A stretch of 34,654 nt of DNA, from positions 1 to 34,654 of the forward strand of contig CALISK010000235.1 of NCBI GenBank assembly GCA_938041625.1, read 5' to 3'. The DNA is from an uncultured Tenacibaculum sp. (GTDB lineage: Bacteria > Bacteroidota > Bacteroidia > Flavobacteriales > Flavobacteriaceae). Numbering within the stretch: the first letter of the stretch is position 1; the number at the start of each line of letters is the position of its first letter. Of the stretch, positions 19,771 to 21,536 are shown piece after piece. The position numbers and the translations under genes were made by a program. The notes under the pieces are model-generated. The model was given only the letters and a program-made list of their open reading frames with translations, was not told the DNA's origin and did no database searches.

Positions 19771-20328
19771 ATGAAACAAATTACTTTGTTTTTAGTGTTG
19801 TTATTGAACTTAACAGTTTTTTGTCAGGATAAAAAGCTACCAGAAGGTTGGGATGAAATATTGCTTGAAGGCCAAACAGCCTATATGAATTTAGTAACAG
19901 GTGATGTATCATATGTTTTGCCTAAAATAGTTGCCAGTGTACCTAAAAAAGTTGTAGAATATGACCCTACTATTACACATAAAGTTAAGAAAGGAGAAAC
20001 ACTTAGTAGTATTTCAAGAAAATATAATAAACACTTATCAGAGTTATATAGATTGAATAGCTTAGTTAATTTTGATTCAATAGAAATAGGAGATGAAATT
20101 GTAATAGGGTATAGGCAAGAAAAAATTAAAGAACAGTATCAAAATGTTATTTATGATAATGAAACTAGTAATGAAGGCGTAGTTACAGATTATCATATAG
20201 TTCAATCTGGAGATACTTTATATAGTATTTCTAAGAAATACAAGATTAACTTAACAATATTAAAAAGAAAAAATAACTTAAAGACGAACGCTATTTTTGT
20301 AGGACAAAAGCTACAAATTCAAAAATAG
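19771..20328 (+). CDS. secreted protein with N-terminal WW-like motif and two LysM domains
   Basis: Signal peptide; LPEGWDEILLEGQTAYMNLVTGDVSYVLP; LysM repeats HKVKKGETLSSISRKYNKHLSELYRLN... and HIVQSGDTLYSISKKYKINLTILKRKNNLKTNAIFVGQKLQI. Confidence 0.9.
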   Translation: MKQITLFLVLLLNLTVFCQDKKLPEGWDEILLEGQTAYMNLVTGDVSYVLPKIVASVPKKVVEYDPTITHKVKKGETLSSISRKYNKHLSELYRLNSLVNFDSIEIGDEIVIGYRQEKIKEQYQNVIYDNETSNEGVVTDYHIVQSGDTLYSISKKYKINLTILKRKNNLKTNAIFVGQKLQIQK

Positions 20329-20360
20329 AGAAAGAAAATACCAATCTGAGAAAATTACAA

Positions 20361-21434
20361 ATGGCAAACGAAAACAAATACACTAAAGAAGATCTTCAAG
20401 AACTTAAGTGGAATGAACATATTCGTTTAAGACCAGGGATGTATATTGGTAGAGTTAATTTAAGAGGATTTATTGATCTTTTAAAAGGAATTTATAGTGT
20501 TTCTCTTTCCAAACTAAAAGCTGATACTATATCTTTTGATTTTAAGAATAGTAATAGAGGTAAAATTATAATCGATAATATTCAGAACCCAGTAATTGAC
20601 AATTGGAGTAAATGGAATTCAAATTCTCAAAACCCATTTATTTTAGAATTTCAAACATTAAATGCTCTTAGTTTATTCTTTACAATTAGATTATTTGATT
20701 CTAATGATGATATAATACTAAGACAGGAATACAAAGAAGGTGTTTTAACTAATGGTGAATTAACTGAAAAGCCTATTGAATGTAATAAGTTAGAAATAGA
20801 TTTTACACTTGACACGAAAATTTGGAAGAAATTTAATTGGCTGGAAAGTTTTATAAACCATGAAATCAGAGAATTTGCATATTTACATAAAAATGTAAAA
20901 TTTAGAGTACATTATGAAGTTGCTGATGAACAATGTAATATTGTTTACTTCTTTGAAAATGGATTGAAAGATAGAATTGAGGTTGAAAATTTAAAAGGTT
21001 TAGGAAGCAGTTATTTCAATACTTATTTTACTAAGGAAATAAAGGATTTTAGTATAGAAGTGGCATTTGCTTTCAGAGATTATACAGTAGACGAACCATT
21101 TTTAAAATCATTCGTAAACGATTATTATACAAATGAAAATGGGAGTCATATTGATGGAGTGTTGAAAGGTTTGACTTATGGGGTGATGAAATACTTTCAG
21201 AAATATGATTTGACAGAAAAATATAAAATATCGGAAAAAGGAATTAAGGAAAGCTTAATAAGTTTAATAAATATTAGAATGAATTCACCAGTATTTAGCG
21301 GATGTGTAAAAAATAAACTTGCAAATCCTGAAATTATTGAACCAATTACCGATTATATTTCTGAATTATTATTTGAGAGTATAGAAAAAGATAAAGAGTC
21401 AACCGAGAAACTGATTAGAAAATTTGAAATATAA
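20361..21434 (+). CDS. GyrB/ParE ATPase-region-like protein (GHKL + transducer), probable pseudo-ATPase without TOPRIM
   Basis: WNEHIRLRPGMYIG, TLNALSLFFTIRLFDSNDDIILRQEYKEG, SFVNDYYTNENGSHIDGVLKGL, KGIKESLISLINIRMNSPVFSGCVKNKLANPEI align with GyrB in order; N-box, DNGRGIP and GGLHGVG motifs are absent. Confidence 0.8.
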   Translation: MANENKYTKEDLQELKWNEHIRLRPGMYIGRVNLRGFIDLLKGIYSVSLSKLKADTISFDFKNSNRGKIIIDNIQNPVIDNWSKWNSNSQNPFILEFQTLNALSLFFTIRLFDSNDDIILRQEYKEGVLTNGELTEKPIECNKLEIDFTLDTKIWKKFNWLESFINHEIREFAYLHKNVKFRVHYEVADEQCNIVYFFENGLKDRIEVENLKGLGSSYFNTYFTKEIKDFSIEVAFAFRDYTVDEPFLKSFVNDYYTNENGSHIDGVLKGLTYGVMKYFQKYDLTEKYKISEKGIKESLISLINIRMNSPVFSGCVKNKLANPEIIEPITDYISELLFESIEKDKESTEKLIRKFEI

Positions 21435-21502: not shown

Positions 21503-21536
21503 AAAAAACACGATGATTAAATCATCGTGTTTTTTT
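21503..21536. terminator. bidirectional terminator between the GyrB-like gene and the OMP gene
   Basis: AAAAAACACGATGATT-a-AATCATCGTGTTTTTT near-perfect palindrome with A/T tails. Confidence 0.88.

Follow-up and report, generated by a model that had tools for sequence, protein, structure and literature searches.

The window, the whole stretch of 34,654 bp analyzed here, comes from an uncultured Tenacibaculum sp. (GenBank assembly GCA_938041625.1, contig CALISK010000235.1) and carries at positions 20361-21434 of the forward strand an intact 357-aa open reading frame with an ATG start and a TAA stop. Reading frame, profile matches and predicted fold identify its product as a stand-alone GyrB/ParE-like pseudo-ATPase, consisting of a GHKL fold and a transducer domain and lacking TOPRIM. 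The gene starts 32 bp after a gene for a LysM-domain protein (19771-20328, forward strand, assigned by profile match), exactly where an earlier, sequence-only reading of this DNA had placed it, and the two are possibly co-transcribed in the window. Downstream, a near-symmetrical terminator-like hairpin (21503-21535) lies between the pseudo-ATPase gene and a convergent outer-membrane beta-barrel gene. As delimited by alignment, the protein opens with an N-terminal strap and an RLRPGMYIG motif (residues 1-30; 20361-20450) that are Bacteroidota ParE-like, with 44-59% identity to ParE in this segment. Where the N-box used to be (residues 40-53, LLKGIYSVSLSKLK; 20478-20519), the catalytic Glu and the Mg-binding Asp/Asn are not retained, and in the region of the former DxGRGIP motif, ATP lid and GGLHGVG motif (residues 69-97; 20565-20651) the motifs are lost and the lid is deleted. 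The transducer domain spans residues 201-357 (20961-21431), also on the evidence of a profile match, and contains the equivalent of the QTK loop, SGCVKNKL (21297-21320), where QTK has become C-V-K/R across the family.

Homology, predicted fold and loss of the ATP motifs

The homology to the N-terminal region of GyrB/ParE that the sequence-only reading had proposed was recovered by several profiles and greatly exceeds what chance would produce. Residues 215-354 of the window protein match the Pfam DNA_gyraseB profile (PF00204, E=8.7e-22), the protein also matches the NCBIfam GyrB subfamily profile (E=1.2e-36), and the best PDB match is ParE43 (4url), with E=1e-15 for the window protein and E=6.5e-27 for the family profile. 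The HATPase_c profile, by contrast with PF00204, gave no match at E<=0.01 in the window protein or in any of 14 family members. A model computed with AF2 from the single sequence was poor (pLDDT 43), and the model based on the 14-sequence alignment (pLDDT 83.5, pTM 0.81) was used instead. Its best PDB matches in a Foldseek search are all N-terminal regions of GyrB/ParE, at a TM of ~0.8, in agreement with the GHKL and transducer fold expected of GyrB43; for Mycobacterium tuberculosis GyrB (3zm7) the TM values are 0.80/0.80, with an rmsd of 3.3-3.6 and 18-19% identity, and viral RIIA is a weaker fold match. The profile and structure matches, together with the absence of HATPase_c in the 14 members, thus establish that the sequence had been read correctly. 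Set against the features of a type IIA topoisomerase subunit B, the protein shares the homologous GHKL and transducer architecture, lacks the ATP-binding motifs (N-box, DxGxG, GGLHGVG and QTK) and ends after the transducer domain, so that TOPRIM and the C-terminal half are missing, as they are in all members of the family.

Motif loss was analyzed in an alignment of the 14 members with GyrB and ParE. Among the 75 columns with a conservation of 95% or more across GyrB plus ParE, the ones that bind ATP/Mg are lost throughout the family. The family consensus has other residues in place of the catalytic Glu/Asp/Asn of the N-box, 14/14 members have gaps at the DxGRGIP columns, GGLHGVG and the ATP lid are either absent or substituted, and the fourth GHKL motif has lost its GT. 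Both Q and T of the QTK motif have been lost, and the Lys position, kept in the window protein as originally noted, is occupied by K in 9/14 members and by R in 5/14. The Asp of the 'IIIDN' string in the window protein varies within the family and is hence not a conserved residue. The disappearance of the N-box, DDGRGIP and GGLHGVG, first described for the window protein, is therefore family-wide, since none of the 14 aligned members and 10 further ones, divergent members included, retains the ATP motifs. Across the family, 71 columns are invariant, of which 55 lie in the transducer half, 28 are common to GyrB and 35 are family-specific and mostly in the transducer, and these 35 residues argue for new constraint rather than decay. 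About a third of the members (~5/14) lack the N-terminal strap or have it in altered form, the transducer half is net acidic in 12/14, and the column equivalent to Arg286 of E. coli GyrB is an invariant Leu. Judging from the loss of its motifs, the family would be unable to bind ATP.

Distribution, ancestry and selection

Orthologs are sporadically distributed within Bacteroidota. Among 35 genomes of the same genus no ortholog was found, the matches being ordinary GyrB or ParE, and a search of 400 Flavobacteriaceae genomes brought up one ortholog, in Aureisphaera galaxeae at 61% identity, the frequency in this family being 2/400. A two-sequence profile built from the window and Aureisphaera galaxeae proteins retrieved 13 relatives from genome contigs (best segments 47-64% identical), belonging to Lacinutrix, two Aquimarina, an uncultured Flavobacteriaceae, Aureisphaera, Aureispira and several Saprospiraceae. 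Positives were obtained for 2/55 Aquimarina genomes and for 15/298 Saprospiraceae genomes, the latter including 10 new members, some of which share no more than 25-35% identity with the member closest to them. Two high-scoring candidates (L130 and L131) turned out to be ordinary GyrB. The family thus comprises 24 members from Flavobacteriaceae and Saprospiraceae, sharing 25-65% identity, all of them stand-alone proteins of ~345-375 aa that end after the transducer. One Saprospiraceae copy (G1308, L171) is interrupted by an internal TAA stop. No relative was found among viral contigs (IMG/VR), and phage matches are limited to distant topoisomerase-like proteins, for which reason a viral or phage origin was rejected. 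A literature search returned no description of a stand-alone, ATP-dead GyrB/ParE-like family.

In a tree of 54 sequences the family forms one ancient clade (support 100/100). Bacteroidota GyrB excludes it (97/95), and it falls on the side of Bacteroidota ParE (98/94); constraining it to GyrB instead of ParE was rejected (p-AU 0.014), with the caveat that long-branch attraction may explain part of this phylogenetic signal. The N-terminal sequence YTxxxIxxLxWxEHIRLRPGMYIG is likewise Bacteroidota ParE-like, and the tree rejects an origin as a recent paralog of the host GyrB. Flavobacteriaceae members are nested inside a wider Saprospiraceae diversity, which suggests transfer, the root being uncertain. 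Synonymous divergence among the Aquimarina and L067 copies is 0.14-0.18 in the 3' half versus 0.74 in the 5' half, a disparity that indicates recombination; between the L065 and L067 copies the values are 0.74 (5' half) and 0.18 (3' half), as in mosaic cassettes. A dN/dS near 1 had been named in advance by the sequence-only reading, along with a mismatching fold and close orthologs with intact ATP motifs, as a result that would speak against its interpretation, and none of the three was obtained. The values obtained are 0.08-0.15 in seven close pairs and 0.04-0.17 when computed by half, with neither half relaxed. Catalytic residues lost in all orthologs, purifying selection and a retained GHKL and transducer fold bear out the original description of the protein as a pseudoenzyme, here extended to a GyrB/ParE-derived family.

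Integron-like cassettes and gene neighborhoods

Four marine Flavobacteriaceae carry the gene as a cassette: Lacinutrix (L064), two Aquimarina (L065, L066) and an uncultured Flavobacteriaceae (L067). In each, the cassette starts directly after GTTATCACCAAT or a close variant, and the stop codon is followed by a ~60-bp palindrome, TATATAACAAA...TTTGTTATATTTA(A/C)CGTT or a close variant. The same attC-like boundaries recur in the four arrays with different neighbors each time, these being small genes of unknown function. A first attC scanner overlooked sites with outer boxes made unlike by cassette shuffling. With a second, cleaner stem scanner, attC-like sites were detected in L064 (10) and L187 (13), always on the same strand; shuffled sequence gave 0-0.2 sites, and the opposite strand gave none. 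The L064-L067 copies hence display a single ORF, attC-like palindromes, same-strand arrays and varying neighbors, as integron gene cassettes do. The array in L187 (L187:1507-13512, uncultured Flavobacteriaceae) is CALIN-like, and the best recombinase match in its genome (72 bits) falls short of the Aquimarina level.

Aquimarina latercula (L122) and an uncultured Aquimarina (L123) carry integron-like platforms (L123:676-13411, L122:1-1853) with an IntI-like tyrosine recombinase of 380 aa, and an attI-like site follows the 3' end of its gene. L122 shows a first cassette with its attC, and in L123 there are 7 attC-like sites past the recombinase gene, all on the same strand. The recombinase points toward the array, which reads in the same direction, a layout known from Treponema integrons (PMC3607928). 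TIGR02249 matches the recombinase as two separate segments that score below the cut-off, and the IntI insert is absent; an IntI-type integrase with the IntI-specific insertion was therefore not found beside the array, and the system is called integron-like. Given that IntegronFinder 2.0 reported a complete integron within Bacteroidetes only in Salinibacter (PMC9024848), integron-like platforms in marine Flavobacteriaceae are a second point of interest.

The window copy shows no convincing attC-like site at its gene borders, and its status as a present-day cassette is not supported. Its leader, ACCAATCTGAGAAAAT (20340-20355, forward strand), matches the L067 cassette leader at 15/16 nt, a similarity that is suggestive only of a trace of a former cassette boundary. 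A functional link to the LysM gene is not supported, as LysM is peculiar to the window copy and adjoins no other member. Across 23 loci no neighbor gene recurs except between near-identical genomes, and a functional pairing with LysM or any other neighbor was rejected on this basis. The Aureisphaera ortholog lies downstream of a DUF4272 gene (L068:7027-7941) and one from a Saprospiraceae MAG downstream of a weak DUF5063 match (L072:272-721), neither arrangement being common to others. Full-length GyrB and ParE are both present in 11/13 host genomes checked. The exceptions are fragmentary assemblies: GyrB is missing in G808, and ParE in the window's own genome (G000, 70%-complete), probably through missing contigs.

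Possible roles and comparison with known systems

The proteins constitute a conserved, sporadic and selected family of ATP-dead mimics of the GyrB/ParE N-terminal region in Bacteroidota, cassette-borne in four marine Flavobacteriaceae. Since their shape is kept while the ATP-binding and DNA-cutting parts are lost, and since they are under strong selection and ride on a mobile cassette in some bacteria, they probably exert their effect as imitators or partners of the genuine enzyme. We infer, tentatively and with somewhat less than even confidence, an accessory, mobile, ATP-independent pseudo-subunit that acts by protein contact on type II topoisomerases. The protein would neither bind ATP nor cleave DNA and, as no dedicated partner accompanies it, its target would be something that every host has. 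The absence of a travelling partner gene, combined with the preserved fold, points to type II topoisomerases or agents targeting them. Contact would be made through the hyperconserved transducer surface with the N-gate/transducer of the host GyrB or ParE, or of the version brought by an incoming phage or plasmid, and would adjust, protect or block the topoisomerase, an accessory trait for which only certain strains would be under selection. Against this reading, the lid and, in the ~5/14 members mentioned above, the strap are lost or altered, and these are the elements that make the GyrB43 dimer, which weakens the case for canonical N-gate pairing. The dimerization decoy or topology modulator put forward by the sequence-only reading stays a conjecture. 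It is a more speculative proposal, which we consider possible but rather unlikely, that integron-carried pseudo-subunits pairing with or shielding a host's or invader's type II topoisomerase represent an undescribed class of regulator or of phage/poison resistance; a defense role as such is possible. If the pseudo-subunit reading is correct, a topoisomerase domain can be converted into a control or protection module, and the hyperconserved transducer points to a surface of GyrB/ParE not so far recognized as regulatory.

The protein might instead be a decoy or immunity factor, a mimic of the GyrB/ParE surface that soaks up a toxin, an antibiotic peptide or a phage inhibitor directed at gyrase and spares the real enzyme. 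A sporadic single-gene module, cassette-borne among small genes of unknown function, with no partner gene and with a fold predicted to be retained without activity, is what such a factor could look like. However, the ATP-site and lid surface bound by many GyrB-directed agents is gone, no conserved toxin gene is adjacent, and 0/14 members match PADLOC/PADLOC-DB models, which also led us to reject a known anti-phage defense protein; we regard the decoy as an unlikely alternative. Repurposing of the fold as a binding scaffold for a non-topoisomerase target is also doubtful. The 35 family-specific invariants, at which GyrB and ParE have other residues, might just as well reflect binding to something other than a topoisomerase, and GHKL folds are reused elsewhere, as in viral RIIA, but the whole GyrB43 architecture is preserved here, including the 28 invariants shared with GyrB. 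GyrB43 dimers enclose a cavity that holds DNA, and the kept fold and strongly conserved transducer would suit a DNA clamp or topology-binding protein that works without ATP, with DNA held in the transducer cavity of a constitutive homodimer. The net acidic transducer and the Leu at the position of Arg286, a residue whose role in E. coli GyrB bears on this question, make such a clamp less likely, and with the lid and, in part, the strap also missing we consider it improbable. A decaying, functionless gyrB/parE fragment is scarcely credible despite the loss of all catalytic motifs and the internal stop in the G1308 copy, as dN/dS is ~0.1 across both halves, the 24 orthologs form one clade with the same architecture and the window ORF is intact, which likewise rejects local gene decay.

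Compared with GyrB43/ParE43, the family shares domain order, predicted fold (TM ~0.8), the RxRPGMYIG motif and the PF00204 transducer, and differs in lacking the ATP motifs, lid, TOPRIM and C-terminal half, in its ~18-32% identity and in forming a separate clade. 'ATP-binding proteins' of Streptomyces plasmids (WP_331741584.1, WP_331746379.1; L128:2968-4158, L129:2971-4161) are also stand-alone, GyrB43-like and end after the transducer. Their N-box is partly degenerate (EVVSYAVDE instead of EVVDNSIDE), its DN being replaced by SY or WY, but they keep DNGRG and most of the lid and G-rich loop, are ~23% identical to the family and group with other GyrB in the tree, which indicates an independent origin. 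PDB entry 3cwv, 'DNA gyrase, B subunit, truncated', presumably from Myxococcus, is likewise annotated as a stand-alone truncated GyrB (369 aa), but was matched only at E=0.67. Qnr-type pentapeptide proteins protect gyrase and are carried as integron gene cassettes; they resemble the family as gyrase-related accessory proteins on cassettes, the gyrase relation of the family being putative, and differ in having an unrelated fold. To our knowledge, known gyrase regulators all have folds unrelated to gyrase, in contrast to which the pseudo-subunit proposed here would be a regulator built from the topoisomerase's own dead N-terminal half, both conserved and mobile.
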